Shown: piece after piece, positions 9,279 to 49,961 of the stretch
Layout: each line of letters begins with the position of its first letter
Position numbering within the stretch: the stretch's first letter is position 1
Assembly (NCBI GenBank): GCA_030725745.1
Contig: JANRFH010000022.1
Span: 33,341-88,064 of the forward strand
Length of the DNA stretch: 54,724 nucleotides
Direction: 5' to 3'
Origin: Akkermansiaceae bacterium
GTDB lineage: Bacteria; Verrucomicrobiota; Verrucomicrobiia; Verrucomicrobiales; Akkermansiaceae
Program-made: the position numbers and the translations under genes
Notes under the pieces: generated by a model
What the model was told of the DNA's origin: nothing
The model's input: the letters and a program-made list of their open reading frames with translations, nothing else
The model's database searches: none

Positions 9279-9374
9279 AAGGAAGACTTGGGTTGTGCTT
9301 TTTACCGCAGAGGCACAGAGATCGCGGCGGGGCGCGGAGCTGGGGTTGATGCTTTTAAATCTAATGATGAAGAG

Positions 9375-10022: not shown

Positions 10023-10041
10023 AGACTCGCGGTCCGTATTG

Positions 10042-12107: not shown

Positions 12108-12296
12108 AATGTAGGGAGGATGCAAGACGGTGGGTGAGGGGGTGGCAAACCTTTCCCGAAAATTTCCGCAAGATTTGTGTAATTTATGTCGATTTACGCG
12201 TAAGAAAGCTGAACTTGGATCTCGGGCAGACGTTTGAGAAGTGCTGGGCGTTCCAGCGCAGAATTTCTTCCCGATCCAAGAACCCAATCCAAACCA

Positions 12297-12569
12297 ATGA
12301 AAATTAAATCAATCGTTGTTCTCGCCCTTGCCCTCGGTGCAGTCGGTGGAGCTCAGGCAAAAGTAATCAAATCCGATAAGGACAGCGCCCCAAAGGTGGT
12401 TGCCGAGGAAGAGGGCGATACCAAGGCTGACAAGAAAAAGAAAATGATCGAGAAGTATGACGAAAATGGCGACGGCAAGCTCGACGATGCTGAGAAGGCC
12501 AAGATGAAAGAGGGCAAAGAGAAGAAGGGCAAGAAGCCGAAGAAGGGGAAAAAGGAAGACGGCGAGTAA
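12297..12569 (+). CDS. Small secreted EF-hand protein, Lys-rich
   Basis: A 90-residue protein with a signal peptide (MKIKSIVVLALALGAVGGAQA) and one EF-hand loop, DENGDGKLDDAE. The C-terminus is a run of lysines, glycines and glutamates (KGKKPKKGKKEDGE). It probably binds calcium outside the cytoplasm; no enzymatic role is visible. The ATG at 12297 is chosen because it starts the signal peptide. A strong hairpin terminator follows 28 nt after the stop. A second EF-hand protein with the same plan follows at 12727, which suggests an old tandem duplication with different repeat numbers. Confidence 0.85.
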   Translation: MKIKSIVVLALALGAVGGAQAKVIKSDKDSAPKVVAEEEGDTKADKKKKMIEKYDENGDGKLDDAEKAKMKEGKEKKGKKPKKGKKEDGE

Positions 12570-12596
12570 TCCTGACCGATCAATCATCAATCAACT

Positions 12597-12629
12597 ACGG
12601 CCATCCAGAAACGGATGGCCGTTTTTTTT
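12597..12629 (+). terminator. Rho-independent terminator after the first EF-hand gene
   Basis: ACGGCCATCC (12597-12606) pairs perfectly with GGATGGCCGT (12613-12622) across the loop AGAAAC, followed by a run of T. It is the cleanest terminator in the window and isolates the monocistronic EF-hand gene. Confidence 0.9.
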
Positions 12630-12726
12630 GCGACGTTTGTAAATTTTCGAAACTTTTTCTGAAGTCGGGTGTTTCATGATTCGTAAAAGCGACAATCGCT
12701 TGAATCATCAAACCAAGAACAAAACC

Positions 12727-13185
12727 ATGAAAACTACATCACTGATCATCATCGCCGCCTCATTCGGCCTCCTCTGCGCAGCAAGCGCAAAACCCGAAGG
12801 TCGCCCCGAAGGTGGACCAGAAGGACGCAAGCTTCCAGAAGCGATCATCGCCAAGTTCGACAAGGACGGCGACGGCAAGCTGAACGAGGAAGAACGCGCC
12901 GCAGCTAAGGAGGCACGCGAAGCCGCAAAGGCAAAAGTCCTCGCTCAATTCGACACGGACAAGGACGGCAAACTGAGCGAAGTCGAAAGAGAAGCAATGA
13001 AGGCGGCTGTTCTCGCCAAATTCGACACTGACGGCGACGGCAAGCTCTCCGAAGAAGAGCGCAAAGCAGCCCAAGAGGAATTCCCAATGGGGCCACGTCC
13101 TGGCGGTGATCGTCCAGGCGGCGAGCGTCCCGGCGGCAACAAGCGCGGTGGTGGCGAAAAAGAAGCGCCTAGCGCTGGGGAATAA
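12727..13185 (+). CDS. Secreted protein with three EF-hands
   Basis: A 152-residue protein with a signal peptide (MKTTSLIIIAASFGLLCAASA) and three EF-hand loops at about 35-residue spacing: DKDGDGKLNEEE, DTDKDGKLSEVE and DTDGDGKLSEEE. An Arg/Gly/Pro-rich PEGRPEGGPEGR segment precedes them and a PGGDRPGGERPGG tail follows. It is probably an extracellular or periplasmic calcium-binding protein. Codons end mostly in C or in AAG, which suggests strong expression compared with its neighbours. It has its own terminator. The ATG at 12727 is chosen for the signal peptide. Confidence 0.87.
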   Translation: MKTTSLIIIAASFGLLCAASAKPEGRPEGGPEGRKLPEAIIAKFDKDGDGKLNEEERAAAKEAREAAKAKVLAQFDTDKDGKLSEVEREAMKAAVLAKFDTDGDGKLSEEERKAAQEEFPMGPRPGGDRPGGERPGGNKRGGGEKEAPSAGE

Positions 13186-13215
13186 TCAGTCCAAAGACGA
13201 CTGACTAATATCTGA

Positions 13216-13242
13216 GGTCACCCGGAAACGGGTGGCCTTTTT
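13216..13242 (+). terminator. Rho-independent terminator after the second EF-hand gene
   Basis: GGTCACCCG (13216-13224) and CGGGTGGCC (13229-13237) form a 9-bp stem with one G-T pair and a GAAA loop, then TTTTT. The design matches the terminator of the first EF-hand gene. Confidence 0.85.
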
Positions 13243-13265
13243 CATGCTCGCGATTAGCCTTCGGC

Positions 13266-14234
13266 CTATTCTGATTTCAAAGCGGGAGCGATTTTATCGA
13301 TCGCCTTGAGGGTGGCACTGTTCAGTTTCGGCGCTTCCAGAGCATCGAGCGAATCGTCCAATTGGGCGACGGTTCTGGCACCAATGATAGATGAGGTCAC
13401 TGCCTTGTGGGCTAGTGTGAAATTGATGGCCATGTGGTTGATCGACATCTCCGCTTTCGCCGCGAGCTTGGAAAGTTTGCGAAGTTTCTTCTGCTGAGCG
13501 GCTACCTGTTCCTCCTGAAGGAAGCCTTCCGGGCGGGCGGCGCGTGAGCCTTCGGGGATGCCTTCGAGGTATTTAGGTGTGAGCATTCCCTGGGCGAGAG
13601 GTGAGAAAACGACGGAGCCGATCTTTTCATCGTGTAGGTAGTCGAGTATGCCCTCGGCTTCTGGCCAGCGGTTCAGGATGGAATAAGGCGGCTGATAGAC
13701 GACACAGCGGACGCCCATTCCTGCGAGGATTTTAACTGCTTTTTTAAGCTGCTTGAGTGGGTATTTCGAGAGGCCTACGTAGAGGGCTTTCCCTGAATGC
13801 ACGGCGGTGGCGAGTGCGGACATGGTTTCCTCAAGCCGTGTATCGGGATCAGGGCGGTGGGAGTAGAAGATGTCCACGTAGGGGAGGCGGAGGCGTTTGA
13901 GCGATTGGTCGAGCGATGCGAGCAGGTGCTTGCGCGAGCCCCATTCGCCATAGGGGCCGACCCACATGTCATGGCCAGCTTTTGTGGTGATGATGAGTTC
14001 GTCCCGGTGGCAGGCGAAATCTTCAGCGAGAATACGGCCGACATTTTCCTCAGCTGAGCCGGCAGGTGGGCCGTAGTTGTTCGCGAGGTCGAAATGGGTG
14101 ACGCCGCGATCAAAGGCGCGGCGCATGATCTGGCGAGCCTCGGGGAGATCATCGTGGTGGCCGAAGTTGTGCCAGAAGCCAAGGGAGATTTCAGGGAGGA
14201 GGAGGCCAGAGTCTCCGCAGCGTCGATAGTTCAT
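13266..14234 (-). CDS. Aldo/keto reductase, YghZ / K-channel beta-subunit type
   Basis: NADPH-dependent oxidoreductase with a TIM-barrel fold, 322 residues. The tetrad residues are visible: Asp in FDLANNYGPP, Tyr in the same segment, Lys in IITTKAG, and His in FYSHRPDPDTRLEET. The segment SKYPLKQLKKA and the YQPPYSILNRW motif match the YghZ (glyceraldehyde 3-phosphate/methylglyoxal reductase) branch and the Kv-beta subunits. The C-terminal SSIIGARTVAQLDD is the cofactor phosphate-binding loop. The likely role is reduction of reactive aldehydes. A heptad repeat lies 4 nt upstream of the ATG. Confidence 0.93.
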   Translation of the reverse strand: MNYRRCGDSGLLLPEISLGFWHNFGHHDDLPEARQIMRRAFDRGVTHFDLANNYGPPAGSAEENVGRILAEDFACHRDELIITTKAGHDMWVGPYGEWGSRKHLLASLDQSLKRLRLPYVDIFYSHRPDPDTRLEETMSALATAVHSGKALYVGLSKYPLKQLKKAVKILAGMGVRCVVYQPPYSILNRWPEAEGILDYLHDEKIGSVVFSPLAQGMLTPKYLEGIPEGSRAARPEGFLQEEQVAAQQKKLRKLSKLAAKAEMSINHMAINFTLAHKAVTSSIIGARTVAQLDDSLDALEAPKLNSATLKAIDKIAPALKSE

Positions 14235-14238
14235 GACT

Positions 14239-30409: not shown

Positions 30410-30475
30410 CGTGCTTTTGCATTTCAATGCAGGTGAATCCGCCTACGGTAGGCATTGTATAAACAGCATTTAGTC

Positions 30476-33400
30476 ATGAAAAATCTCCTCCTCCCTTGCC
30501 TGCTTACTCTGATCGCCGCCTTGCCGGCATTCTCCGCGCCCCGTCTGGTGGTCTCCACGCCATCACTTCTGCCGGAATCGAAGATCGATGTGATCTTCGA
30601 GCAGCCGATGGTCGAACAGGATGACCTTGGTAAAGAGGTGGTGAACGAGTTTTTTACCACGACTCCCAAGCTGACGGGGAAATTGTTCTGGAAAGCGCCG
30701 ACCATTGCGGAGTTCCGGCCGGATTCGATACCGGCGCTGGGCACGACCTACCGTTTCACCATGGGAAAAGGCCTGAAGCACCTAGATGGCACGGAGGTCG
30801 ATGCTGGGGAGTTCGCTACCGTTTCTAGTGAGTCGTTTCGCATCTTAACTTCGCAGGTTCCGAACCGCTGGGCGAGCGACTATTCGCGCTCCACTTCGAG
30901 CTTCATGATCGTTTTCAACGACGATGTGGATGCGGATGCCGTCGCGGGGTTCTTTACGTTTTCTGCTGACGGGAAAGGTCGAGTCGCCCCGAAGATCGTG
31001 CACGCCACAGCACAACAGGCGGGATACTACCGCACGAGCTACCTGCCATGGAAAAGCCGTTTGGATCCCGAAAAACATCGTGAAAATGTTGCGCCGGAAA
31101 CCTTGGTAAAAAACATCCTCATCGTCTCGCCGCTTTCCCCTTTGCCAGTGGCGAAGAACTGGGAACTACGGCTGCTCAAAGGCCTGCCGAACGCCGATAA
31201 GACCGCTGGGCTCGAAAACGACTGGCCTTACACGATCGGCGATGTCGATCCCTTCAGCTTCGGGGATGCCTACGCGCAGGTTTCTCCCAGCTCCCCGCGC
31301 AGCATCCTGCTGACCTTCAACGAGCTCCTTCCCGCTGAAATCGATGCGTCTGCGGTTTCCGTTTCACCAGAGCCGGAAGGGATATCCGTTTCCACCGATG
31401 GCAAAACACTACGTATTATAGGGGATTTCAATGAGTATAACAAATACACCGTCACACTGGCGAAAGGGGTGCTTTCGTCCAGCGGGCAAAGCCTGAGTAA
31501 TCCCGGCTCGCGTGAAATCGAGTTCGAAAGACTGGAGCCTGAGCTTGCTTTGCCCTCCGAAGACGAAGCCCAGCTGGCTTTCGGTAAGCGCGAGTATGAG
31601 ATTAGCACGGTCAATCTCTCTTCCATCACGATCCGTATTAAGAAGCTCGAAGGCAAGGGTGCTGTCCGCACATTTCAAGGCTATCGGAACTACACCGGAG
31701 TGGGGCCGAACTGGACACAGATCGAGCCCATGTCCATCTTGCCCTTCTCGCTGATTCCCGGGACGACGGTTCTTGAGAAAACCATCGAGCTCGGCACCGA
31801 TGTGGATACCGGGACAAACTTGACGCTTTCCTGGGACGACCTGCTACCCGAGGGCACGGATTTCGCCTCGCTGTTCATCGATGTGATCGGCACCCCGCAT
31901 CCCATGGCGGAGATCGAGGGCAGGTGCAACGCCCAGGCGATCGTCCAGCTCACGGACATCGGCTTGGCGTGGAAATTCACAGATACGTCATCCCTAGTAT
32001 ATGCGTTTTCCTGCAAGACAGGCAAGCCGCTGCCCGGCGTGAAAATCTCCACACGTGGTGAGGATGCGAAGCTGCTGGAGGAAGCGGTTACCGGCGATGA
32101 CGGCATGGCGACCGTAGCGCGGAATGACGATGTCCGTCACGTGCAGGCCACCCTAGGAGAAGACTCCTACACCGCCGCCTTCGATGAGACGCTCGACAGT
32201 GTCGGCCTATGGCATTTCCCCGTCCGCTACTCGTGGATGAAACAACAACCACAGCAGCGCCGCGCCTTCATGTTTACCGAGCGTTCGCTCTACCGCCCCG
32301 GCGAAAAGGTTCGCATCAAGGGCATCGTGCGGAACCAATTCGGCAACGCCATAGGCCTCGCCGAGCAGAAGCCCGCGCGCATCGTGATCGTTGATCCACA
32401 GGACAAGGAAATCTTCACACAAGATGTAGAATTGTCTGCGCTGGGGTCGTTTGACCTCAGCTACACACTCCCGGATGCGACTACAGGAGGCCATGTCATA
32501 CGACTTGAGTTTCCGGAAGATCTGGAAGCTGCGGAGAATTCGGAAGATTGGGAGGAGCAGGAAGCTCTCCAGCAAAGTGCGAGATTCGAGTTATCCCTGC
32601 GTGTGGAGGAATTCCGCCGCAACACCTTTGAGATACTTCAGCAAATCAACGATCCCGCTATCGGCGCAACAGAAGTCTCAGCGAACCTAACCGCCACCTA
32701 TTATCAAGGTCAGCCCGTCGCTGCCGGAAAGGCATCTACTTTCACCGAGATCACCGAGATCAATCCATACCCCGAGCGATACCGTGATTTCCTCTTCGGA
32801 AACCACCGCAAGGACGATTGGCGCTACTGGTATCATTACTTCGGCTACCGCGATAGCGATAGTGATAACGAAATTGTCGGCACAAGTTTGGATTCCGAGA
32901 GCGTGTTATCTGCGGAAGGCTTCGCCGAAATTCCCGTGCAAATTCCGCAGGGCGAATTTCCGACCACAAAGCAGGTCAGCATCGCCACGGAAGTTACCGA
33001 TGCGAACAACCAGACACTCACCGCCCGCTCTTCTGCTACTATTCATCCCGCGTCGCTTTACGCAGGTATTTCGCGAGTGGATAGGCTGATCCGTGTAGGT
33101 GAGCAGGCGCCGTTCCGCATCGTCGTTACAGATACAGAAGGCGAACCCGCCGAGCAGGATGTGAACCTTACCGTCACCCTCTCCCGCCAAGTTCATACCA
33201 ATACCAAGACCACAAATGCCAACGGCGATACGGTCACTGAGAGCGATCCACAGGAGGAGGTAATATCTACGGCGGAAATCGTAGTTACGGGGGAAGATTC
33301 TGCTAAAGAAGGGATGTCGTTTCCCATTGCTCCACAAAACACCGGCCTGCATTTCCTCACCGTGAAAGGCAAGGACGCTGAAGGCAGGGAGTTCGCCACC

Positions 33401-36208
33401 GTCACTCGAATCCATGTCTATGGATCGACAGAATACCCGTGGCAGTATGAGGACGGCTTGCGCATCAAGCTGGTTTCCGAAAAGAAATCCTACAAGCCCG
33501 GCGAGACCGCACGCATACTCGTCCTTTCACCCATCGAAGGCACCGCTCTCGTCACTGTGGAACGCGAAAAAATTCTCAGCTCGCAGCTTATTGAACTGAA
33601 AGCAGATAACCCGGTCATCGAGATTCCACTCACCGACGACCACGCGCCGAACGCCTACGTCTCCATCCTGATCGTCAAAGGCTCCGCCGAATCCGCGCGC
33701 GACATCAAGGAACCCCAGCTCCGCCTCGGTTACTGCGAGCTTCAAGTCGAGAACCTGCGCGACCGCCTCGATGTCGCCATTGACGATCCAACAGAAAGCA
33801 GCCGCCCCGGCACCGAGGTCACGCTCACGGGTACGGTGAAAACCGCCGACGGCACACCTGCCGCAGGTGCCGAAGTCACGCTATATGCCGTGGACGAAGG
33901 CACGCTGGCGGTGATGGGTTACGACACGCCCGACCCTATGGCCTATTTCTACGACAGGCGCTATCTGTCCGTAAATGCAGGCACATCCTTCCAGGACTTC
34001 ATCACGGAAAACCCCGAATACCGTTCGTTTCATAACAAAGGCTTCTTCATCGGCGGCGGTGGTGACCCGAGCAAGCTGGCCGAACTTTTCCGGAAAAACT
34101 TCGACCCCTGCGCCGAGTGGGCACCGACCCTCATCACGGATGCCGAAGGCCGTTTCTCCAGCAGCTTCACCCTGCCGGATACCCTGACGCGCTATCGTGT
34201 CATCGCCATCGCGCATCACACCGGATCGAGTTTCGGAAATGATGTGTCGGAGCTGTTGGTGAAAAAGCCGCTCATGCTTGAGCCGAAGCTGCCGCGGTTC
34301 GTGCATCAGGGAGATGAAATCACCGGAAACGTGATGGTGCAGAACGCCTCGGATTACACTGCGACATGGGAGATCGAATGCTCCACCGGTGGCATCGCGG
34401 AGGTAACCAACGCCACCCAATTGAACGGCCCATCGAGCCAAAGCATCACCCTTGCACCCGGCGAGTCCAAGGTGCTCGGTTTCCCCTTCATCGTCGTCGA
34501 TACCGGAGAGGTCACCGTTTTCTACCGCGCCACTCCGCTCTCGCTGCAGGACGGTGAGCTGACATCCGCGTTGGAAGCATCACTTTCCGATGCCGTGCAG
34601 GAAACCTTCACCTCCCACTACCCGATGCCGCTTCTCAGGCAGGTGACCGCTGTCCGCACCCAGCCCGGCACGACCACCGACTTGCACGACCTCCTCAGCA
34701 AGGAATTGCAAACGGCAAACGGCATCGTCGAGCTAGAATTCGCCACCTCGCCGCTGGTGGAAATCACCGCCTCCGCCGACTACCTGCTTCAGTATCCATA
34801 CGGCTGCGCGGAGCAAACCAGCTCCTCGCTCATGCCGTGGTTTGCTGTGAAAAACCTTCGTCCCTACGTCCCGGCCTTCGCGAAGAAGAGCGACAAGGAA
34901 GTGGAGAAAGCTATCAACGCCGGAGTCGGCCGCCTGCTCAGCATGCAACAACCGAACGGCTCCTTCGGCTACTGGCCGGGCGCGACCGAGACCAATGAAT
35001 GGGTCACCCCCTACGCGGGCATGGTTCTCACCCTCGCTTCGCAAAACGGCGGCAATGTCCCGCAATCCGCCCTCGACAGCCTCGCGCAGTATCTCATCGG
35101 CACGCTCAGGGGCGCAGGTGAGGAGAAAAATTCCACCGCTTTGGAAAACCACGCACGCACGCTCTACACGCTCGCCCTGCTTGGAAAAGCACAGGTGCCA
35201 TATCATTCCCTTATGGTGGAGAAACTCCCCTTCATGAGCGATACCGCACGCGCCCTCCTCGCCGCAGCCATGGCCGTCGGCTCCGAGGGGCGACCCCAGG
35301 TGCTCTCCGCAGCAAGCGGCATCCTTTCCTCGAAAACTGCCTTCAAGGAAAATACCGATGAGAACTACTGGATTCCCCGTGGATCCGCGCTGCCTGCGGT
35401 GCTTATCGCCCGCATCGCCATCGATCCCGATTCCAAGGAAGTTCACGCCACCCTCGACAGGCTCCTGAACGACCGCAATCCCTACGGCCACTGGCGCAGC
35501 ACCTGGATGAACGGCTGGAGCATGCTCGCCGTAGCCCAATACGCTGCGCACCAATCACCAGACCAAGCGAACGCCGAAATACTCGTGAACATCGATGGCG
35601 AAAGCCGGAAGATCAGCCTCAACCCCGAGAGCCCCACAGCTGCCCTGTCCTTCCCGCTCACCGCCGCCACGACCATGACGGTTTCCTGCGAAAGCACCAC
35701 CTACGTCCGCATGAAAGTCGCGGGCAAACCGGCGATCACTCCGTTGGCACCTGTCGCGAAAAACGGCCTGTCCATCGACCGTTTCTACGAAAAAGTCCTG
35801 CCCAGCGGCCAGACCGAAGTCCTCAAACAGCCCGCCCTCGGCGATCTCATCCGCGTGACCCTCCGCGTGACCCTGCCGGAGGACGACAGCCGCTACGTCG
35901 TCGTCGATGACCCGCTTCCCTCCATCTTCGAGACGGTGAACACCGACTTCGCCTCGCAGTCATCCGCCCAGAACGTCCGCACCAGCGAGAACGACTGGAC
36001 GGTATCGCATTCCGAGCTCCGCTCCGACCGCGCCGTGTTTTTCATGGATCGAGTCTGGAGAAAAGGCACCTACGAGCTCACCTACCTCGCCCGCTGCACC
36101 ATCCCCGGCGAGGTCAACGTCCCACCCGCCAAGGTCGAGTCCATGTATGACCCGGAAAATTACGCCCTCTCCGCCTCCTCGAAATTCACCTCAGCGCCCG
36201 CAGAATAA
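30476..36208 (+). CDS. Alpha-2-macroglobulin family protein (YfhM type)
   Basis: A 1910-residue secreted protein with signal peptide MKNLLLPCLLTLIAALPAFS (ATG 30476, preferred over an ATG 21 nt upstream). It has the bacterial A2M plan: many MG domains, the MG-domain signature YSWMKQQPQ/FTERSLYRPGEKVRIKGI, a bait-like region, and the thioester motif GCAEQ (Cys about 1444, Gln about 1447), the bacterial CxEQ form. The C-terminus ends with the complement-like LPDTLTRYRV upstream and the YEVKYLAR-like LTYLARCTIPGEV. It traps external proteases to protect the cell. No pbpC is adjacent, although such genes are often paired. Confidence 0.95.
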   Translation: MKNLLLPCLLTLIAALPAFSAPRLVVSTPSLLPESKIDVIFEQPMVEQDDLGKEVVNEFFTTTPKLTGKLFWKAPTIAEFRPDSIPALGTTYRFTMGKGLKHLDGTEVDAGEFATVSSESFRILTSQVPNRWASDYSRSTSSFMIVFNDDVDADAVAGFFTFSADGKGRVAPKIVHATAQQAGYYRTSYLPWKSRLDPEKHRENVAPETLVKNILIVSPLSPLPVAKNWELRLLKGLPNADKTAGLENDWPYTIGDVDPFSFGDAYAQVSPSSPRSILLTFNELLPAEIDASAVSVSPEPEGISVSTDGKTLRIIGDFNEYNKYTVTLAKGVLSSSGQSLSNPGSREIEFERLEPELALPSEDEAQLAFGKREYEISTVNLSSITIRIKKLEGKGAVRTFQGYRNYTGVGPNWTQIEPMSILPFSLIPGTTVLEKTIELGTDVDTGTNLTLSWDDLLPEGTDFASLFIDVIGTPHPMAEIEGRCNAQAIVQLTDIGLAWKFTDTSSLVYAFSCKTGKPLPGVKISTRGEDAKLLEEAVTGDDGMATVARNDDVRHVQATLGEDSYTAAFDETLDSVGLWHFPVRYSWMKQQPQQRRAFMFTERSLYRPGEKVRIKGIVRNQFGNAIGLAEQKPARIVIVDPQDKEIFTQDVELSALGSFDLSYTLPDATTGGHVIRLEFPEDLEAAENSEDWEEQEALQQSARFELSLRVEEFRRNTFEILQQINDPAIGATEVSANLTATYYQGQPVAAGKASTFTEITEINPYPERYRDFLFGNHRKDDWRYWYHYFGYRDSDSDNEIVGTSLDSESVLSAEGFAEIPVQIPQGEFPTTKQVSIATEVTDANNQTLTARSSATIHPASLYAGISRVDRLIRVGEQAPFRIVVTDTEGEPAEQDVNLTVTLSRQVHTNTKTTNANGDTVTESDPQEEVISTAEIVVTGEDSAKEGMSFPIAPQNTGLHFLTVKGKDAEGREFATVTRIHVYGSTEYPWQYEDGLRIKLVSEKKSYKPGETARILVLSPIEGTALVTVEREKILSSQLIELKADNPVIEIPLTDDHAPNAYVSILIVKGSAESARDIKEPQLRLGYCELQVENLRDRLDVAIDDPTESSRPGTEVTLTGTVKTADGTPAAGAEVTLYAVDEGTLAVMGYDTPDPMAYFYDRRYLSVNAGTSFQDFITENPEYRSFHNKGFFIGGGGDPSKLAELFRKNFDPCAEWAPTLITDAEGRFSSSFTLPDTLTRYRVIAIAHHTGSSFGNDVSELLVKKPLMLEPKLPRFVHQGDEITGNVMVQNASDYTATWEIECSTGGIAEVTNATQLNGPSSQSITLAPGESKVLGFPFIVVDTGEVTVFYRATPLSLQDGELTSALEASLSDAVQETFTSHYPMPLLRQVTAVRTQPGTTTDLHDLLSKELQTANGIVELEFATSPLVEITASADYLLQYPYGCAEQTSSSLMPWFAVKNLRPYVPAFAKKSDKEVEKAINAGVGRLLSMQQPNGSFGYWPGATETNEWVTPYAGMVLTLASQNGGNVPQSALDSLAQYLIGTLRGAGEEKNSTALENHARTLYTLALLGKAQVPYHSLMVEKLPFMSDTARALLAAAMAVGSEGRPQVLSAASGILSSKTAFKENTDENYWIPRGSALPAVLIARIAIDPDSKEVHATLDRLLNDRNPYGHWRSTWMNGWSMLAVAQYAAHQSPDQANAEILVNIDGESRKISLNPESPTAALSFPLTAATTMTVSCESTTYVRMKVAGKPAITPLAPVAKNGLSIDRFYEKVLPSGQTEVLKQPALGDLIRVTLRVTLPEDDSRYVVVDDPLPSIFETVNTDFASQSSAQNVRTSENDWTVSHSELRSDRAVFFMDRVWRKGTYELTYLARCTIPGEVNVPPAKVESMYDPENYALSASSKFTSAPAE

Positions 36209-36643: not shown

Positions 36644-37612
36644 ATGAAATCACTTGTATCACTAACTGCGCTTATTCTTTTTTCGACATTCGCTACAGCG
36701 GAAAAAAAAGAATTTGGAACCGTGAAAATAACATACACCGAGCTTCCTGCTATTGGACTGGAGGATGGTATCATGCGCCGTGATCCGAGTGACATTATCA
36801 AAGTAGGTGACCTCTTTTACGTTTGGTATTCCAAGGGAACTATCGCTCCCGGATACGATGCCACCATCTGGTATGCGACTTCACCCGACGGTCTTGACTG
36901 GACGGAAAAAGGAGAGTCTCTGGCGCAGGGCGAGCCGGGAACTTGGGAAGGTGCTAGCGTTTTCACTCCGAACATCCTCGTCGCCGAAGGGAAATACTGG
37001 CTTTTCTACACTGGGACATCCAATGAGATCAGCGAGAAGCCATTCAATCCGGATTCTAAAATCGGTATCGCTGTTTCTGATTCACCAGATGGACCATGGG
37101 AGCGTATCTCTGATGAGCCGGCTCTAAAAAACAGCGACATAGCCGAAGATTTCGATAGCCACCTGATCGATGATGCCTGTCTAGTGGTTCGCAATGGCAA
37201 ATACTGGTTTTATTATAAGGGACGCCAGCTCGGGAAAAGCCCTGCCCAAACTAAGATGGGAGTCGCAATCTCAGATAAACCGGGCGGCCCTTACGTGAAA
37301 TACGAAAAAAACCCGATCATCCCGGGCAACCACGAGGTATTCGTCTGGGCGCAGGGTGAGGGCGTCGCCGCGATGATCGGTACCACGGGGCCGAAGGATA
37401 TCACTAGGTCGATCCTCTACGCAGAAGACGGTCTGAATTTCACCAAAACCCACAATGTCATGAACGGCCCGGTGGGTGCCGGTGGCTACCGTCCTGGATC
37501 CTTCACCGACAAGGGTGAAGGCAAGGAAGTCGAGTGGGGCGTGGAATTGCAATATCCGAAAGGAAAAGGTCTGCCATACATCCAGCGTTGGGATGCGAAA
37601 TGGTCTGAGTGA
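36644..37612 (+). CDS. Secreted glycoside hydrolase, GH117/GH43-like five-bladed propeller
   Basis: A 322-residue protein with a signal peptide (MKSLVSLTALILFSTFATAE). The blades start with RRDPSDIIKVGDLFYVWYSKG, whose Asp matches the catalytic base position, and continue with ATIWYATSPDGLDWTEKGES, SVFTPNILVAEGKYWLFYTG, FDSHLIDDACLVVRNGKYW and a GVAISDKPGGPYVK strand. The pattern is closest to neoagarobiose-hydrolase-type GH117, with GH43 the alternative. The substrate is probably a galactan or other algal glycan, released outside the cell. It is the first gene after the tRNA and its codons are AT-richer than the upstream macroglobulin. Confidence 0.78.
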   Translation: MKSLVSLTALILFSTFATAEKKEFGTVKITYTELPAIGLEDGIMRRDPSDIIKVGDLFYVWYSKGTIAPGYDATIWYATSPDGLDWTEKGESLAQGEPGTWEGASVFTPNILVAEGKYWLFYTGTSNEISEKPFNPDSKIGIAVSDSPDGPWERISDEPALKNSDIAEDFDSHLIDDACLVVRNGKYWFYYKGRQLGKSPAQTKMGVAISDKPGGPYVKYEKNPIIPGNHEVFVWAQGEGVAAMIGTTGPKDITRSILYAEDGLNFTKTHNVMNGPVGAGGYRPGSFTDKGEGKEVEWGVELQYPKGKGLPYIQRWDAKWSE

Positions 37613-37739
37613 CCTACTAACTCGCTAAACCGGATTTAGAGCCTGCGCCCCTCATGGAGCGCAGGCTTATTTTTGTGGCTCAGCGCATATTCTGAAAAAT
37701 GGGTATGACGACTCCGTGTCTTATCCCCATAGTCGTCCC

Positions 37740-39914
37740 ATGACCCGCGTGATTCTAGCCTTCCTTTTCTCCGCCTCGCTCCTCAGTTCAGCCGAGCGCC
37801 CGAATATTGTTTTCATTTTCTCGGATGACCATGCGCTCAATTCCATCTCAGCTTATGGCGGGCCGTTGAAGGATGTGGCACCGACGCCGAACCTCGACCG
37901 CATCGCGGCGGAGGGCGCGATTTTCACAAATTCGTTTTGTTCGAACTCGATCTGCGGGCCTTCGCGCGCGGCGATCCTGACGGGAAAGCACAGCCATGTG
38001 AACGGCTATGTTGATAACAACAACTCACGCTTCGACGGCAGCCAGACGACCTTTCCGAAACTGCTGCAGAAAGCCGGCTACCAGACGGCAATCGTGGGGA
38101 AATGGCATCTCGTTTCCGATCCGCAGGGCTTCGATCATTGGGAGGTTTTACCGGGGCAGGGCAGTTACTATAATCCCGATTTTCTGCAGCAGGAGGGCGG
38201 GAGAAAACGTTACGATGGTTATGTCACCGATATCGTAACGGATCTGGCCATCGACTGGTTGGAGAAGGAAAGGGATCCTGATAAACCGTTCGTCCTCATG
38301 TGCCAGCATAAGGCGCCTCACCGCAATTGGTCACCAGCGCTCCGTCATGTGACCTTGTTCGATGGTATTGATATCCCCGAGCCCGCGAGCCTTTTCGACG
38401 ATTACTCCAAGCGCAGCAAGACGCTGGGGGAGCAGGCGATGTCGATCGCGAAGGACATGTCTTGGAATAACGATATGAAATTTCACGGAGAGAACCTTTT
38501 TCTGGAAAAATTCACGAGTGAGCCGGATAATGGAGAATACGCGCGCATGAGCGAGGAGCAGAAAAAGGCGTGGGACGCGGCCTATGAACCGTTGAACCAG
38601 GAATTCATCAAAGCGGTCGAGTCCGGCAAACTGAAGGGCGATGCCATCACTTCCTGGAAATATCAGCGATACATCAAGGACTACCTGCGCTGCATCAAGG
38701 CGGTGGATGAGAATGTCGGGCGGCTACTCGATTACCTCGATGAATCCGGACAAGCGGAAAACACCATCGTGATCTACTCCTCCGACCAGGGTTTCTACCT
38801 CGGCGAGCACGGCTGGTATGACAAGCGCTGGATGTTCGAGGAAAGCCTCGCCATGCCTTTCCTCGCGCGCTGGCCAGGTGTGATCAAGCCGGGTATGCGG
38901 AATGATGCCCTCATCCAGAACATCGATTACGCTCCGACTTTCCTGGAAGTGGCCGGGGTCGAGGTACCTGCAACGGTGCAGGGAAAAAGTTTAATTCCGC
39001 TTTTGAAAAATACGGTCAAGTCGGAAGAATGGCGCGAAGCTATCTACTATTTCTATAGTGGAGAGGAAACCCATCAGGTCGCCGCCCATGACGGTGTGCG
39101 GAACAAGCGTTACAAAGTGATGTATTTCCCTGATACCGAGGAGTGGAATCTCTTCGATCTACTGAAGGATCCCAGCGAGATGGCATCTGTCCATGATGAT
39201 CCAGAATACAAGGAGGTGCTGGAGGACATGAAGGTGCTGTATGCTTCTCTGCGCAAGGAATACCACATGTCCGAGGCGACCGTGCCGGCGGAGAGGTTGA
39301 AGCAGAAGTGGTGGGCGGAAAGGCACAAGGCGAAGGTGGCCGAGGCCGCGGAAGGTGGGCATGATATTGTCTTTATCGGCGACTCTATCACTCAAGGCTT
39401 CGAAGGAGCAGGTAAGGCCGCCTGGAAGGAACTCACCGATGGAAAGAATGCCCTGAATCTAGGCTTCTCCGGGGATCGCACGCAGGAAGTGCTTTGGAGG
39501 CTGATGAATGGTGAGCTTGAGGGTGTTGATCCGAAGCTGTTTGTCCTGATGATCGGCACGAACAACACCGGGCACAACCAAACCGCTCCGGGGGAGACGG
39601 CTGATGGGGTTCGACTGATCGTTGAGCTCCTTCGCGACCGCAGCCCGGATGCTGAAATCCTGTTGCTTTCGGTTTTCCCCCGTGGCGAAATGCCTGAAAA
39701 TCCGCTGCGGAAAATCAATGATGGCATCAACACGATCATCAAGGATCTAGCCGATGGAGAGCACGTCCACTGGCTGGATCTGAGCGGGGTTTTCCTCGAT
39801 GTAAAAGGTGTTTTGCCGAAGTCCGTCATGCCGGATTCCCTGCATCCGAAGGAAGAGGGCTACCGCATGTGGGCTGAGGCAATGGCTTCTGAAGTTGAGC
39901 GACTTATGAAATAG
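37740..39914 (+). CDS. Bifunctional sulfatase fused to an SGNH/GDSL esterase
   Basis: Secreted (signal MTRVILAFLFSASLLSS). N-terminal formylglycine sulfatase: NIVFIFSDDHA (metal Asp pair) and SICGPSRAAILTGK (the Cys of CxPSR becomes formylglycine), then GKWH, and SSDQGFYLGEHGWYDKR near residue 350. After about residue 535 a complete SGNH hydrolase domain begins: GDSITQGFEG (Ser), SGDRTQEVLWRL (Gly), MIGTNNTGH (Asn) and DSLHPKEEGY (Asp, His). The 724-residue fusion suggests coordinated removal of sulfate and acyl groups from one polysaccharide. Its ATG at 37740 is chosen to start the signal. No sulfatase-maturase gene is in the window. Confidence 0.92.
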   Translation: MTRVILAFLFSASLLSSAERPNIVFIFSDDHALNSISAYGGPLKDVAPTPNLDRIAAEGAIFTNSFCSNSICGPSRAAILTGKHSHVNGYVDNNNSRFDGSQTTFPKLLQKAGYQTAIVGKWHLVSDPQGFDHWEVLPGQGSYYNPDFLQQEGGRKRYDGYVTDIVTDLAIDWLEKERDPDKPFVLMCQHKAPHRNWSPALRHVTLFDGIDIPEPASLFDDYSKRSKTLGEQAMSIAKDMSWNNDMKFHGENLFLEKFTSEPDNGEYARMSEEQKKAWDAAYEPLNQEFIKAVESGKLKGDAITSWKYQRYIKDYLRCIKAVDENVGRLLDYLDESGQAENTIVIYSSDQGFYLGEHGWYDKRWMFEESLAMPFLARWPGVIKPGMRNDALIQNIDYAPTFLEVAGVEVPATVQGKSLIPLLKNTVKSEEWREAIYYFYSGEETHQVAAHDGVRNKRYKVMYFPDTEEWNLFDLLKDPSEMASVHDDPEYKEVLEDMKVLYASLRKEYHMSEATVPAERLKQKWWAERHKAKVAEAAEGGHDIVFIGDSITQGFEGAGKAAWKELTDGKNALNLGFSGDRTQEVLWRLMNGELEGVDPKLFVLMIGTNNTGHNQTAPGETADGVRLIVELLRDRSPDAEILLLSVFPRGEMPENPLRKINDGINTIIKDLADGEHVHWLDLSGVFLDVKGVLPKSVMPDSLHPKEEGYRMWAEAMASEVERLMK

Positions 39915-44764: not shown

Positions 44765-46258
44765 TTATTTCGACCAGTCTGGGGCTTCTGCGCGGATGTT
44801 TGACCAGAGGCTGAGCATCTTTTCCTTGGAGGATTCGAACTGCCCGGGGCGGAGGGTGGTGAGGTCGGTTTCTTGGAAACGATCGGTGCTAAGATCATAG
44901 AGGGCGAAGCGGTTGAGTTCCGCAGCTTTCACCCATTTGGAGTATCCGCGCCCGCTGAACTCGGAGGTGAACCAACCGACGATGACGTGGTCGCCGTCGC
45001 GCATGGCCATTCCAGGGAGTTTGCTGGAGTCCTCACTGATGGGGAAAATCCAGCAGGCGGGGATTTTGCGTTCGGAGGTTTTTCCTAGCAGGGCAGGGGT
45101 GGCGTCGATGCCATCGATGGTGCGGTCTGTTGGGACGGAGATGCCGGTGGCGGCGCAGACGGTAGGGAGCCAATCGGTTCCGTTGACGAAGCGGGTGGAG
45201 AGGGAGCGGGCGGGAACTTTTCCCGGCCAGCGGACGATGCCGGGCACGCGGTGGCCGCCCTCGAGGACGTAGCGTTTCATGCCTTTCCATGGGCCGGGGG
45301 TGCCGAAGCAGCGGTCGCGGATCGGGTCTTCCCAGTTGCCGCCGGATTCCTCGATGGTGACCGGAGTTTCGGGACCGTTGTCGCTGGTGAAAATGACGAG
45401 GCTGTCGTCGCGTTTGCCCTGGGTGTCGAGCGCGCCCATGAGCTTGCCGAAGGCGGCATCGAGCTGGGTGACTGTGCCGTAGTAGTATTTTTTATTTTCG
45501 GAAATGGAGCGATCGAGCGGGCGGTGAACTCCACCGTATGCGACCACGCTTTCCAGTTTCTCCACCATCTCATCCTCATACATCGCGGAGAATTTTTCCG
45601 GAGGATGGATGGGGGTGTGGGGTTCGTGGGAGGAGACGACAATGAGGAAGGGTTTCGCTGGATCCGGCCGGTTTTTCATCCAGGCGATTGCTTCATCGAC
45701 GATGGCATCGCAATACCACGCGCCGGTCTTGTCGACCTTCTCGCCGTTGCGGACGAATTTCCCGGGGTCTTCGGGGCCATCGAAGGCGTTAATCTCGGTG
45801 GCGAACCAATGGTCGAAGCCGTGGTCGCCGGGGGTGGGGTCGTTTTCAAAACTGCCGAGGTGCCATTTTCCGACGAAACAGGTGTCGTAGCCTTCGTCGC
45901 GGAGGAGGGTGGCGAGGGTGATCTCCTCTTTTTTCAGATGGCAGCCCTCGGGGCCGGCGAGGTAGTAGAAGCCGCTGCGGAATGGAGCGCGCCCGGTGAG
46001 GAGCGATGCGCGTGAGGGTGAGCAAACGGTGCCGCCCGAGTGGCAATCGGTGAGCCGCACACCTTCGCTGGCGAGGGCGTCGATGTTGGGCGTTTTGATG
46101 ATGGGGTTTCCGTAGCATCCGAGGTCGCCGAAGCCGAGGTCATCGGCGAGGAAGATGACGATGTTTGGTTGTTCGGCGGTGCTGAGGGTTGAGATGGAGA
46201 AGAATGCTACAGCGAGGTGCTTGAGCAGTTTGCACATGGGATATTTGGCTGTTTTCAT
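44765..46258 (-). CDS. Formylglycine-dependent sulfatase, secreted
   Basis: Arylsulfatase-A-type enzyme of 497 residues. Motifs: NIVIFLADDLGFGDLGCYGN (metal Asp pair), TVCSPSRASLLTGRAPFRSG (Cys for formylglycine), GKWHLGSF, TSDNGPETP and HEPHTPIHPP. The N-terminus is a signal (LLKHLAVAFFSISTLSTAE). The start at 46258 overlaps the GH95 stop by 4 nt (ATGA); an ATG 7 codons downstream also starts the signal. As the third gene of the oxidoreductase-GH95-sulfatase operon, it likely desulfates a fucan or similar glycan before fucose release. Confidence 0.94.
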   Translation of the reverse strand: MKTAKYPMCKLLKHLAVAFFSISTLSTAEQPNIVIFLADDLGFGDLGCYGNPIIKTPNIDALASEGVRLTDCHSGGTVCSPSRASLLTGRAPFRSGFYYLAGPEGCHLKKEEITLATLLRDEGYDTCFVGKWHLGSFENDPTPGDHGFDHWFATEINAFDGPEDPGKFVRNGEKVDKTGAWYCDAIVDEAIAWMKNRPDPAKPFLIVVSSHEPHTPIHPPEKFSAMYEDEMVEKLESVVAYGGVHRPLDRSISENKKYYYGTVTQLDAAFGKLMGALDTQGKRDDSLVIFTSDNGPETPVTIEESGGNWEDPIRDRCFGTPGPWKGMKRYVLEGGHRVPGIVRWPGKVPARSLSTRFVNGTDWLPTVCAATGISVPTDRTIDGIDATPALLGKTSERKIPACWIFPISEDSSKLPGMAMRDGDHVIVGWFTSEFSGRGYSKWVKAAELNRFALYDLSTDRFQETDLTTLRPGQFESSKEKMLSLWSNIRAEAPDWSK

Positions 46259-48729
46259 TCAGGTTTACTTGTGCCGGAATGAATTCGAATTTTCCGTTCT
46301 GGGTCTAAATTTTCGGGCTTCGCTGGACGGATGTAGAAAGTGGTTCCCGCCTGGGTAGGCAACTCAGCAAGACCTTCCGGTAAAATTGCGAGAAGTATGT
46401 CTGAGCCACTAAAAACATGGAGTGGCTGTGTAGTGCGAATCGTCAGAAGTTCACCACTGCGCGAAAGAATCTTCGCTTCTGTGAGTTTGGATTCGTCCCA
46501 TTTTAGATCGATGTCGAACCCACCGCGTGCACGTAGGCCTTTGATTTCGCCGGAAGGCCAGCGTTCAGGAAGAGCGGGGAGGAGGCGGATTTCGCCGCCG
46601 TGGGATTGCATGAGCATCTCGATGATAGTGGCGGTGAAGCCGAAACTGCCATCGACCTGGACACTGCCGGAGCAGATGGAGAAAAGGTTCGGGCAGGTAT
46701 ATTCTTCGAGGCATCGATCGAAATGTGCGATGGCTTTCTCCGGTTGGCGGAGGCGCGCCCAGCAGGCGGCTTTCCATGCGGATGCCCAACCGTTTCCGAA
46801 GAGACCGCGTTGTTCGAGCACGGCGGCGGCTCCTTTTGCGAGTTCGGGAGTGCCTTCGGGGGTGATCTGGTGGCCGGGGAAAAGGCCGTAGAGATGGGAG
46901 ATGTGGCGGTGGCTTTCTTCGGTCTGTGCCCAGTCTTCGAGCCATTCCTGGAGTTCGCCGTTGGCACCGACCTTGGTAGGAGCGAGGCGAGAGCGTGCAT
47001 CGAGTATTTTCTCTCTGAAATCCTCGTCGATACCGAGAACTTCGGATGCTTCGGCGACTTGGGTAAAGACGTCGCGGATGATTTGTTGGTCGATGGTGGC
47101 TCCGGCGCAGAGGGTGGTGCCGGTTGTTAGATAGGCGGCGTTGTCATCATAGAATCCCTGGTTATTTGGATGTCCGGGAATGTTTTCCGGTGAGGTGGAG
47201 GGGCAGGTGACGAGCAAGCCGGTCTCCGGGTGAGGGACTAGGTAGCTGAGGAAAAACTCCGCAGCGCCCTTCATGACGGGGTATTGGGATTTGAGGAATT
47301 CCGGATCGGGGTTGTAGAGGTAATGTTCCCAGATGTGGGTGCCAAGCCATGCTCCGCCGACGGTGAATGCGCCCCAGTTCGCGCCGTCCATGGGGGCGGC
47401 GGCGCGCCAGATATCGGTGTTCTGGTGCGCGACCCATCCCTCGCAGCCATAGAGTTCCTTGGCGAGGCGTTCGCCGTTTTCCGCAAGCTCACCGACCATG
47501 GTGAAGAGGGGTGCCGTGCATTCTGAAAGGTTGGCCGGCTCGGCTGGCCAATAGTTCATCTGGGTGTTGATGTTGATCGTGTATTTCGAGTCCCACTTGG
47601 GGTTCATCTCTTCGTTCCAGATTCCCTGGAGGTTCGGTGGTTGTGTACCGGGGCGCGAGGAGGTGATGAGCAGGTAACGACCAAACTGGAGGATGAGCGA
47701 GGCGAGGCCGGGATCATCTTTGCTGGGGTTGTTGGCGAGGCGTTGGTCGGTGGGAAGGGATGCTCCGGGGCCGTCCCAAAGATCCACCGAGAGCCTGTGG
47801 AAAAGGCGTTGGTGCTCAGTGATGTGCTCGGCGCGTATTTCATCAAATGAGCGTTCGGCGAGTTTTGTTAGGGTTGCCTCGACGAGTCCGCGTGGGTCGG
47901 CACCGAGTTCTTTGTAGCTTTTGAAGTTGGTGTTTGCGGCGAGGAACAGGGTGACGCTATCGGCTCCGCTGACGATCAGGTTGTCTTCCACGATTTCTGA
48001 AGTGCCGCCTTCGAGACGGGCTTCCATCTGAGCTTCGTAGCGCTGTGCGCCTTCGACTCCGAGGTAGTCGGCGGACTTGCCGTGGAGGCGCAGGCGTTTG
48101 TTAGGGAGGCCGTCCATTTGGAAGACATCATTGCCGTAGTTCGAGTGCTGGGTATTTCGTATGCCGCGCAGCTCGGCCTTGAAGGAAATGGATCCGGGTG
48201 TGTCCGAAGTGATGCGGACGACGATGACTTGATCGATGGGTGAGGAGAAAACCTCGCGGGTGAACGCCACGCCATCGCGGGAAAAGCTGGTGGTGGCGAT
48301 GGCGGTATCGAGATTGAGTTCCCTGCGATAGTTGTCGGTTTCCCCTTCGCCGAAATCGAGGATGACGTCACCGAAGGATTGGTATTTCTGCTGCTCGATG
48401 GGGCTACCCATCAGGTGGCGACCGAAGAGTTTGTGAGCCTTGCGGTATTCGTTGGAGAAAATGGCATCGCGTATCTCACCGAGATGTTCCGCCCCGCCCG
48501 CGACATCCGGCTGGTAGGGGCCACCTGACCAGCGGGTGTCTTCGTTGAACTGGATGCGTTCCTGATTTGGCTCGCCGAATACCATGGCTCCGAGACGACC
48601 GTTGCCGACGGGGAGCGCCTGGATCCAGACCTCGGCGGGTTGTTCATACCACAGCATGGTGGAGGGTGTGGCGGAAGCGATAGGGATCATGCAGGCGGCG
48701 GTGGTGAGGATGCTGATGAGTCGGGTCAT
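46255..48729 (-). CDS. GH95 alpha-L-fucosidase (or alpha-L-galactosidase), secreted
   Basis: An 824-residue glycosidase with a signal peptide. Family features are strong: ALPVGNGRLGAMVFGEPNQE, QFNEDTRWSGGPYQPD, WNEEMNPKWDSKYTINI (with the substrate-binding Asn), TCPSTSPEN with the catalytic-acid Glu, and the DGSFGFTATIIEM Asp. GH95 inverts alpha-L-fucosidic or L-galactosidic linkages. The start at 48729 overlaps the upstream oxidoreductase stop by 4 nt, and its stop overlaps the sulfatase start by 4 nt, so all three are translationally coupled. Confidence 0.95.
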   Translation of the reverse strand: MTRLISILTTAACMIPIASATPSTMLWYEQPAEVWIQALPVGNGRLGAMVFGEPNQERIQFNEDTRWSGGPYQPDVAGGAEHLGEIRDAIFSNEYRKAHKLFGRHLMGSPIEQQKYQSFGDVILDFGEGETDNYRRELNLDTAIATTSFSRDGVAFTREVFSSPIDQVIVVRITSDTPGSISFKAELRGIRNTQHSNYGNDVFQMDGLPNKRLRLHGKSADYLGVEGAQRYEAQMEARLEGGTSEIVEDNLIVSGADSVTLFLAANTNFKSYKELGADPRGLVEATLTKLAERSFDEIRAEHITEHQRLFHRLSVDLWDGPGASLPTDQRLANNPSKDDPGLASLILQFGRYLLITSSRPGTQPPNLQGIWNEEMNPKWDSKYTININTQMNYWPAEPANLSECTAPLFTMVGELAENGERLAKELYGCEGWVAHQNTDIWRAAAPMDGANWGAFTVGGAWLGTHIWEHYLYNPDPEFLKSQYPVMKGAAEFFLSYLVPHPETGLLVTCPSTSPENIPGHPNNQGFYDDNAAYLTTGTTLCAGATIDQQIIRDVFTQVAEASEVLGIDEDFREKILDARSRLAPTKVGANGELQEWLEDWAQTEESHRHISHLYGLFPGHQITPEGTPELAKGAAAVLEQRGLFGNGWASAWKAACWARLRQPEKAIAHFDRCLEEYTCPNLFSICSGSVQVDGSFGFTATIIEMLMQSHGGEIRLLPALPERWPSGEIKGLRARGGFDIDLKWDESKLTEAKILSRSGELLTIRTTQPLHVFSGSDILLAILPEGLAELPTQAGTTFYIRPAKPENLDPERKIRIHSGTSKPE

Positions 48730-49961
48730 GCTTTGATGTTGGTTTTATTGAGACGTGATTTTTCTGCTATGAATGCGAGTCGGTGCCCCGCAAGGCCATC
48801 GAGGCCGGGAGCCAATGCCTGCGGCCCCTCCAGCAGCCCGTCGAGTGCATTGATGAGTCCGAAGTCTCCGCCACCGTGGCCTGCGTAGCCGCTGGCATCT
48901 GGCTCTACGACTGGTATAGACTCAATCTCGCCGCTGCGGTGGTCGCGGAACCATAGTTCGGGAGTGCCTGCGTTTTGAAATTGCGAGCCTCCACGGAGTG
49001 AGCCGAGTGTGCCGTGGATTTCGATGGTTCGTCCACAGTCGAAGGCGGTCATCGTGAGGGTGGCGGTGATGCCGTTTTCCATTTCTACGGCCACTTCCTG
49101 GTGATCCACGGTGTCGTTATCGCAGTGATAGACGCAACGTCCCCAGGGAGAGGTTTTGATGAAATCCGTGACACGTGCGTCATCTGCTTCTTCCGCGCTG
49201 TCCATGACCATGCGCAGCCAAGGCCGCTTGTCGGTGAGGTAGCGGTGGGCATCGTAGAGGCAATCCGAGGCAGCCGGGCAGCCATCGCTGCAACGTGGGG
49301 GTGCGCCGGGTGGGGCGTTTTCCGAGCGGAACCAATCCCGCCTGCCGACACTGCTCACATTTTGCAAAACGGAATCCGAAAGCCAGCAGAGGAGATCCGT
49401 ATCATGCGAGCATTTCGCGACGATCATCGGGCTGGATTCCGTGGTCTTCGACCAATGCCCGCGCACGTAGGAATGCGCTTGGTGGAAAGGCTCCACGCCC
49501 TCGGTGGCGCGGAGGGTCATGATCCTGCCGAGCCTGCCGGAATCAACCACAGCTTTTACCGCAGAGTAGAAAGGAGTGTAGCGCAGGACGAAGCCGGGCA
49601 CGATGCGCCTGCCCAGCGAGCGGGCGGTGGCGTCGAGCTCCTCGCAGCGCTCCAGGGATTCGGCGGCGGGTTTTTCTAACAATAAGTCGTAGCCGAGGCT
49701 GAGCGCCGTCATGGCGTGGCCGAAGTGGTGCGCGTCTTGGGTACCAATGATAAGGACATCGGCGAGTTTCCCAGCTGCAAAAAGCTCTTCGGCCGAGCCG
49801 AAAATGGCGATTTTCTCCTCATCGGCGAGTCCTGCGACGATAGCGGTTCGTTCGGAAACGAGATCGGCGGCGGCGGTGATTTCGTAACGATCTGGCAACG
49901 AGCTAGCGATTTTGGCGTAGGTGCGTCCGCGGGAGCCGCAGCCTAGAATGGCAATTTTCAT
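48726..49961 (-). CDS. Gfo/Idh/MocA-family oxidoreductase
   Basis: NAD(P)-dependent sugar or inositol-type dehydrogenase of 411 residues. The Rossmann region MKIAILGCGSRGRTYAKIAS is N-terminal; the catalytic-region EKP motif is in LLLEKPAAESLERCEEL and the second domain has VPGFVLRYTPFYSAV. Cys-rich CSDGCPAASDCLYDAH is unusual for the family and may bind a metal. It is the first gene of the coupled operon with GH95 and a sulfatase; the presumed job is oxidation of a released sugar, possibly L-fucose. No signal peptide is seen, so it acts in the cytoplasm. Confidence 0.92.
   Translation of the reverse strand: MKIAILGCGSRGRTYAKIASSLPDRYEITAAADLVSERTAIVAGLADEEKIAIFGSAEELFAAGKLADVLIIGTQDAHHFGHAMTALSLGYDLLLEKPAAESLERCEELDATARSLGRRIVPGFVLRYTPFYSAVKAVVDSGRLGRIMTLRATEGVEPFHQAHSYVRGHWSKTTESSPMIVAKCSHDTDLLCWLSDSVLQNVSSVGRRDWFRSENAPPGAPPRCSDGCPAASDCLYDAHRYLTDKRPWLRMVMDSAEEADDARVTDFIKTSPWGRCVYHCDNDTVDHQEVAVEMENGITATLTMTAFDCGRTIEIHGTLGSLRGGSQFQNAGTPELWFRDHRSGEIESIPVVEPDASGYAGHGGGDFGLINALDGLLEGPQALAPGLDGLAGHRLAFIAEKSRLNKTNIKA

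Follow-up and report, generated by a model that had tools for sequence, protein, structure and literature searches.

A sulfatase fused to an SGNH hydrolase, with two conserved catalytic sites, in an Akkermansiaceae bacterium and its relatives

The locus encodes a sulfatase and an SGNH hydrolase in one open reading frame

We analysed a stretch of 54,724 nucleotides from an Akkermansiaceae bacterium (here called the window), in which positions 37740-39914 of the forward strand form a single open frame. Translation of the window from the ATG gives 724 amino acids without a frameshift; a GTG at 37716 is an alternative start, and the stop lies at 39914. In this protein, the Pfam models Sulfatase (PF00884; residues 21-407, E 5.7e-53), SGSH_C (PF16347; residues 355-505, E 7e-53) and Lipase_GDSL_2 (residues 545-709, E 1.1e-29) all match above their gathering scores, and both the sulfatase and the SGNH domain were present in 58/58 homologues scanned. 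A previous reading of the letters alone (the sequence-only reading) had described a complete formylglycine (FGly) sulfatase fused to a complete SGNH hydrolase, with a CGPSR motif and four SGNH blocks. Its coordinates and motifs are correct by translation and alignment, and the Pfam domains and motifs are indeed present in one frame. The CGPSR motif fits C/S-x-P-S/A-R, the signature of S1 FGly sulfatases. The features of the gene are listed in Table 1.

Judging from its N-terminal sequence, the fusion protein is probably exported, being either periplasmic or extracellular; a lipobox-like pattern was found in 5 of 81 fused N-termini. Among the 81 aligned fused proteins, the mean majority identity was 51% in the linker, compared to 74% in the sulfatase and 66% in the SGNH domain. 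The AlphaFold model of the whole chain reached a pLDDT of 90.0 and a pTM of 0.89, which suggests that the two halves are packed in a defined way.

Table 1. Features of the fusion gene and its upstream region, with positions in the window
Feature	Position	Strand	Basis and conservation
Terminator-like hairpin and trailing TATTTTT, in the gap from the GH117-like gene to the fusion gene	37639..37668	+	-23.5 kcal/mol, z -3.29 vs shuffles
Fusion ORF: signal peptide, S1_11-like sulfatase, PAF-AH-like SGNH hydrolase	37740..39914	+	Sequence, Pfam; architecture shared by the best 80 of 344 GTDB relatives
Signal-peptide-like N-terminus without lipobox, residues 1-18	37740..37793	+	By eye
S1 sulfatase domain, residues 19-510	37794..39269	+	Pfam, sequence relatives, fold matches
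CGPSR, FGly precursor Cys72 to Arg76	37953..37967	+	81/81 aligned; 97/97 fused rows
Asp361-Lys362-Arg363, candidate Asp/Arg of the S1_11 triad (O4)	38820..38828	+	81/81; placed by alignment
His450, candidate His of the S1_11 triad (O3)	39087..39089	+	Invariant in the 58-row set A1 and in 97/97 fused rows; placed by alignment
Linker and first SGNH helix, residues 511-542	39270..39365	+	Helix 523-537 in structure model
SGNH hydrolase domain, residues 543-722	39366..39905	+	Pfam, sequence and fold matches
SGNH block I GDSITQG (residues 547-553), nucleophile Ser549; Ile550 at the PAF-AH Leu48 position	39378..39398	+	Ser 81/81, Ile 81/81
SGNH block II GFSGDRT (residues 575-581), Gly578	39462..39482	+	81/81
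SGNH block III GTNN (IGTNN 605-609), Asn608; Thr607 at the PAF-AH Thr103 position	39555..39566	+	81/81
SGNH block V DSLH (DSLHPKEEGY 699-708), Asp699 and His702; Leu701 at the PAF-AH Leu194 position	39834..39845	+	80/80 rows with letters; one row stops at a contig edge

The fusion gene behaves as a lone unit

Upstream of the fusion gene lies a GH117-like gene (36644-37612, +), whose best hits are the 3,6-anhydro-alpha-L-galactosidases 5ta7 and 4ak5 (E 1e-50 to 1e-51). Because a terminator-like hairpin lies upstream of it, the fusion gene is probably transcribed alone. This hairpin was not reported by a consensus terminator scan, whose counts were no higher than those of shuffles. Downstream and on the opposite strand, we found DUF1552, DUF1592, a second sulfatase (44765-46258), GH95 (46255-48729) and a GFO/IDH/MocA gene. 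The GH117-like gene on the plus strand and the minus-strand series of sulfatase, GH95 and GFO/IDH/MocA genes (44765-49961) possibly represent a set for an L-galactose or L-fucose glycan. In addition, a bacterial alpha-2-macroglobulin-like (A2M) protein of 1917 aa is encoded at 30455-36208 on the plus strand.

When the best 80 homologous loci were searched for these neighbours, GH117-like, A2M, DUF1552, DUF1592, GH95, GFO and S33 genes gave no hits beside them at E 1e-15. The second sulfatase is uninformative as a neighbour, since it cross-hits the focal sulfatase in all 80 loci. Furthermore, we clustered the neighbouring ORFs, and the commonest recurring non-sulfatase family was present in 10 of the 80 loci; the clustering recognised the focal gene in 76/80, while in L001, L012, L025 and L065 it was missed by the greedy gene caller. 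Ten neighbour examples were compared to Pfam, giving PLD, BipA, DUF1501, rhomboid, aldolase II, TPR, SDR and dioxygenase, with two lacking a match. As no tested neighbour from the window recurs and the others are mixed, the neighbourhood was dropped as a guide to the substrate. The fusion gene stands on its own, and its substrate cannot be read from its surroundings.

The fusion recurs in independently assembled genomes

A scan of GTDB contigs found 344 stretches encoding relatives, from which the best 80 were kept by match rank. All of these best 80 of 344 encode the fusion in one frame; 77 run to a stop codon and three (L010, L011 and L060) leave the contig end. This list favours fused proteins, because some of the search peptides lay in the SGNH half and the stretches were ranked by match. 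In a less biased sample of the family, counted by hand, 59 of 145 genomes had a match extending to at least query residue 717; among the rest, some had the sulfatase half only and 39 had no match at E 1e-100. In a phylum-wide sample the full-length match was sparse (8/288 genomes). This search for the domain architecture, which had been proposed in the sequence-only reading, shows that the fusion recurs.

The record titles of 20 of the best 80 loci bear planctomycete names (MAG names can err), indicating that the architecture covers two phyla. The same junction is present in Luteolibacter marinus (L002), Haloferula rosea (L012), Roseibacillus ishigakijimensis (L020), Rhodopirellula europaea (L071) and planctomycete K23_9 (CP036526.1, L058), so that named strains and one complete chromosome are among the independent assemblies that share it.

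An assembly chimera, or a chance joining of two genes, could in principle produce such a frame, and the host genome is a draft of 57 contigs; otherwise we found nothing in favour of this explanation. Against it stands the fused frame in both the best 80 of 344 loci and the family sample. The identical junction across independently assembled genomes excludes an assembly error, while chance is ruled out by the E-values and by the 80 other loci in which the sequence is conserved. We therefore consider the probability of a chimera negligible. The sequence-only reading had named a frameshift, a lost catalytic residue and an assembly error as grounds on which it would fail; these were looked for and none applies. 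The sulfatase-SGNH fusion is confirmed as real, and the fused protein is probably useful to its hosts.

Both catalytic sites are conserved, and both halves are under purifying selection

In all 97 fused rows, the sulfatase-site residues D29, D30, C72, R76, K121, H123, H194, D349 and Q350 are kept, and so are the triad candidates D361, R363 and H450. The 18 unfused relatives also retain the sulfatase-site residues, which are therefore no marker of the fused group. In the SGNH half, 96 fused rows have the catalytic Ser, Gly, Asn, Asp and His without exception, and one row ends before the Asp and His at a contig edge; 16/16 solo relatives keep these residues as well. As claimed in the sequence-only reading, both catalytic sites are intact, their residues being invariant wherever sequence is present.

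We also estimated dN/dS for 12 close pairs, some of which are saturated at synonymous sites. With 11 usable pairs the ratio was 0.016-0.072 in the sulfatase half, and with 10 usable pairs it was 0.043-0.131 in the SGNH half. Both halves are under purifying selection. The higher ratio of the SGNH half points to a slightly weaker constraint, yet this half is clearly selected.

These data bear on whether the SGNH half could be a binding or structural module that has lost its esterase activity. Its rate of evolution is somewhat higher than that of the sulfatase half, as seen from the majority identities given above, which would suit such a role. However, its five catalytic residues do not vary in either the fused rows or the solo relatives, and even a solo SGNH protein that lost its sulfatase (L169, see below) still has all five. 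Loss of the esterase activity is thus very improbable.

The sulfatase half resembles S1_11 enzymes

The nearest solved sequence relatives of the sulfatase half are 7ebp, 9s8y, 9s03, 5g2v (BT4656) and 7p24 (BT3177), with 506-535 bits, and the exo-L-galactose-6-sulfatase 7lha is more distant (363 bits, in separate stretches). In VIA-align, BT4656 (5g2v, Z 50.2) and BT3177 (7p24, Z 50.0) were tied, followed by 7ebq, titled as an Akkermansia muciniphila sulfatase (Z 47.9), and the L-Gal-6-sulfatase 7lj2 (Z 41.9). Foldseek placed the sulfatase structures in the same order. Based on the nearest solved sequences and folds, the sulfatase half is S1_11-like.

BT3177 and BT4656 are S1_11 mucin enzymes that act in exo mode on 6S-GlcNAc, in which the His of a triad reads O3 and the Asp and Arg read O4, and O3 sulfation is not tolerated by BT4656 (PMC10154612, in excerpt). 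About half of S1_11, aquatic members especially, is described there as lacking the N-acetyl region and as reading L-galactose by the same triad. For two A. muciniphila sulfatases of subfamily 11 the substrate is 6S-GlcNAc (PMC11790493, in excerpt). By sequence alignment, without superposition of structures, D361, R363 and H450 of the fusion occupy the places of this triad. As S1_11 enzymes are described as exo-acting, the fusion is more likely to act on chain ends or oligosaccharides than on an intact polymer.

The host genome harbours two unfused paralogues that are useful for comparison. One, C16:96127 (L135, G000:C16:90100-103700, 5989-7599 on the plus strand), belongs to the L-Gal kind (660.8 bits to 7lha), and the other, C5:30246, to the GlcNAc kind (538.7 bits to 7p24). 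The stretch from PEPA to YQRY (residues 213-308) has 95 residues in the fusion and 92-97 across 81 fused proteins, compared to 74 in C5:30246 and 61 in C16:96127. By score and by the length of this stretch, which is also long in relatives of the GlcNAc type, the fusion sulfatase sides with the GlcNAc-kind paralogue.

The protein might nevertheless be bifunctional in a different setting, as an exo-6-sulfo-L-galactose sulfatase that joins the products of the GH117-like and GH95 genes in a pathway for red-algal galactan (porphyran/agar). The GH117-like gene adjoins the fusion gene, GH95 lies on the other strand, and the same triad serves in the L-Gal-6-sulfatases of S1_11 (PMC10154612 and PMC9096561, in excerpts). 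However, sequence and fold place the fusion nearer to the GlcNAc6S enzymes, and a separate unfused gene of the same genome, C16:96127, is far closer to 7lha and has the shorter PEPA-YQRY stretch. Moreover, GH117 and GH95 were found beside 0 of 80 homologues, and the terminator-like hairpin splits the GH117-like gene from the fusion gene. We consider a galactan pathway unlikely; from sequences and structure models, a target sugar of the GlcNAc type is likely for the sulfatase half.

The SGNH half resembles PAF acetylhydrolase Ib

The closest sequences to the SGNH half are the catalytic subunits of PAF acetylhydrolase Ib (PAF-AH Ib; E 3e-36). The structure model of this half (pLDDT 96.4) matches their fold with Z 30.8 and an rmsd of 1.6 over 207 residues at 35-36% identity, and the second-ranked fold group consists of sialate O-acetylesterases of Bacteroides and Phocaeicola (Z 23-24). 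NCBIfam gave distant matches only, below cut-off (AxeA1, 19.9 bits). In PAF-AH Ib, the preference for acetyl has been credited to Leu48, Leu194 and Thr103 (PMC2615213, in excerpt). Their counterparts in the fused family, Ile550, Leu701 and Thr607, are invariant where present; position 48 is Ile and not Leu in the fusion, a conservative change. The match to the acetyl contacts of PAF-AH makes an acetyl-sized pocket likely. By sequence and model, the SGNH half is PAF-AH-Ib-like, and its fold and pocket narrow the acyl group to acetyl. A PAF-AH-like fold by itself is no proof that the substrate is a sugar ester.

Maturation of the sulfatase

The sequence-only reading had looked to an anSME for maturation of the sulfatase. 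The anSME model TIGR03942 gave no match in the host genome at E 0.001 (0/1 genomes; with the genome 95% complete, the gene may lie in a missing part), and FGE-type genes were found instead. PF03781 (FGE type) matched seven places in the host genome, two of which share one frame and one of which has an internal stop. One of the PF03781 places (L111) carries GGSFLCHISYCMRYR, the FGE cysteine motif, and another (L112) has a similar Cys pair without RYR. Judged by these genes, an oxygen-dependent FGE is the likely maturase for Cys72.

Origin of the fusion and loss of single halves

A FastTree tree covered the sulfatase domains of 97 fused and 18 unfused proteins. The fused and unfused labels require three changes on this tree, and all 97 fused sulfatases share one branch with four unfused ones (local support 98). 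When rooted on the outer paralogues, the tree fits one fusion followed by two losses of the SGNH half, with a root that is not firm because the two chosen outgroup rows do not fall together on one side of a branch. Among the nested unfused sulfatases, L123 (G013:C76) has an in-frame TGA and is possibly a decaying copy; L124 (G129) is found in a genome that also encodes a fused gene (L093). Resolution was poor in the SGNH tree, with 32 of 109 inner branches open and eight state changes; this tree was not used for counting splits.

A loss in the other direction was found in the solo SGNH gene L169 (G058, 5979-6797 on the minus strand). It retains a remnant of 16 residues from the sulfatase N-terminus, 12 of which are identical to those of L037, joined to a normal linker, and it has kept all SGNH residues. 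From its sequence, we read L169 as a fused gene that lost almost all of its sulfatase through an in-frame deletion. Together with the nested unfused sulfatases, it indicates that each half is selectable alone, and the four nested unfused sulfatases and the solo SGNH relatives show that the halves can do without each other.

We also looked for split pairs as support for a joint role, and dropped these: among the unfused sulfatase loci L118-L133 (n=16, 15 genomes), an SGNH-like ORF was found near one, a weak match of 31 bits about 5 kb away. The eight solo SGNH loci inspected by eye have housekeeping-like neighbours. Of the 11 unfused PF13472 places in the host genome, 3 have a sulfatase ORF no more than 1 kb away; this is weak evidence given 78 sulfatase-family places in 3.4 Mb, a few of which are two pieces of one gene. 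Some of these host-genome matches (C25:4662-5582, C30:161065-162192 and C13:4373-5464) lie in frames of 1108, 1118 and 966 aa and are probably further multi-domain sulfatases. At another locus (L136, G000:C8:1-20000; 9015-14235 on the minus strand), two tandem sulfatase genes have separate SGNH genes on each side, all on one strand.

A possible joint action of the two halves

We propose that the fusion is a single-chain, bifunctional exo-enzyme for glycan trimming, in which a 6-O-sulfatase and an O-acetylesterase act on one and the same GlcNAc-type sugar and the acetyl is cleared in cis. This is the reading that we favour and consider fairly probable; within it, we infer the activities, the sugar, the acetyl position, the order of the steps and export. 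Cys72 would be converted to formylglycine by the host FGE and not by an anSME. The esterase half (Ser549, Gly578, Asn608 and Asp699-His702) would clear an O-acetyl group at O3 or O4 in cis, and the sulfatase half would then cut the 6-O-sulfate from the non-reducing-end sugar, most likely of the GlcNAc type. O3 and O4 are the positions recognised by the triad, and an O3 sulfate is not tolerated by BT4656; an acetyl group on either oxygen should therefore prevent desulfation. Such a block, cleared in cis, would give a reason for the fusion. That both halves act on one polysaccharide, as the sequence-only reading had suggested, is plausible.

Alternatively, the two halves may attack separate positions or molecules within a mixed glycan, with the esterase acting for instance on O-acetyl sialic acid or an acetylated sugar of the backbone, and the sulfatase on a sulfated side sugar. 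They would then be joined for co-secretion only, without gating. The sialate O-acetylesterases as next-nearest SGNH folds and the existence of solo sulfatases and solo esterases are consistent with this. On the other hand, a single junction with conserved spacing has been maintained over two phyla, and the confident model of the whole chain goes beyond the needs of a tether. We judge such a mere co-secretion to be rather unlikely. The cis-acting enzyme might even be self-gated, so that desulfation is possible only after the fused esterase has freed O3 or O4 of the same residue; this stricter idea we put forward tentatively, as possible though doubtful. If it were true, a widespread and undescribed aquatic glycan should exist, with end sugars carrying a 6-O-sulfate and a 3- or 4-O-acetyl.

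If both halves work, a sulfatase with a built-in acetylesterase would be a ready-made tool for glycans bearing both modifications, and 6-O-sulfated, O-acetylated end sugars would be predicted to be removed by aquatic Verrucomicrobiota and Planctomycetota. The proposal also suggests a testable reason why many sulfatases show no apparent activity on native glycans: an adjacent acetyl may block the triad.

Comparison with known systems

In the literature searched, whose coverage excludes most subscription papers, no description of a sulfatase-SGNH/GDSL fusion was found, and it is unmentioned in the excerpts of an SGNH review (PMC9487903), the SulfAtlas paper (PMC5066984) and a review of algal sulfatases (PMC9096561). 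Both kinds of domain, and sulfatases joined to other catalytic modules, are already known; the pairing of a sulfatase with an SGNH hydrolase had no counterpart in the literature searched.

The S1_11 enzymes BT4656 (5g2v), BT3177 (7p24) and the A. muciniphila enzyme (7ebp/7ebq) are like the fusion in fold (Z 48-50, 45-48% identity), FGly motif and candidate triad. However, their chains of about 520-530 residues have no SGNH domain and match residues 19-513 of the fusion only. With the alpha subunits of PAF-AH Ib (1wab, 1es9 and 3dt6), the fusion shares the SGNH fold and the Ser/Asp/His residues, and the pocket is Leu/Leu/Thr in these subunits versus Ile/Leu/Thr in the fusion. In contrast to PAF-AH Ib, the fusion is probably exported and is linked to a sulfatase, and its expected substrate is a glycan and not the lipid PAF. 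The sialate O-acetylesterase of Phocaeicola vulgatus (7pzg and 6njc; Z 23-24) is a bacterial SGNH esterase acting on an acetylated sugar, but unlike the fusion it has a single domain, and the identity is 28%. A precedent for a sulfatase with a second glycan-active catalytic module is Formosa agariphila FA22250 (6hr5), according to its PDB title the S1_25 module of a rhamnosidase; here the sulfatase belongs to another subfamily, and its partner is a GH78 glycosidase and not an esterase.
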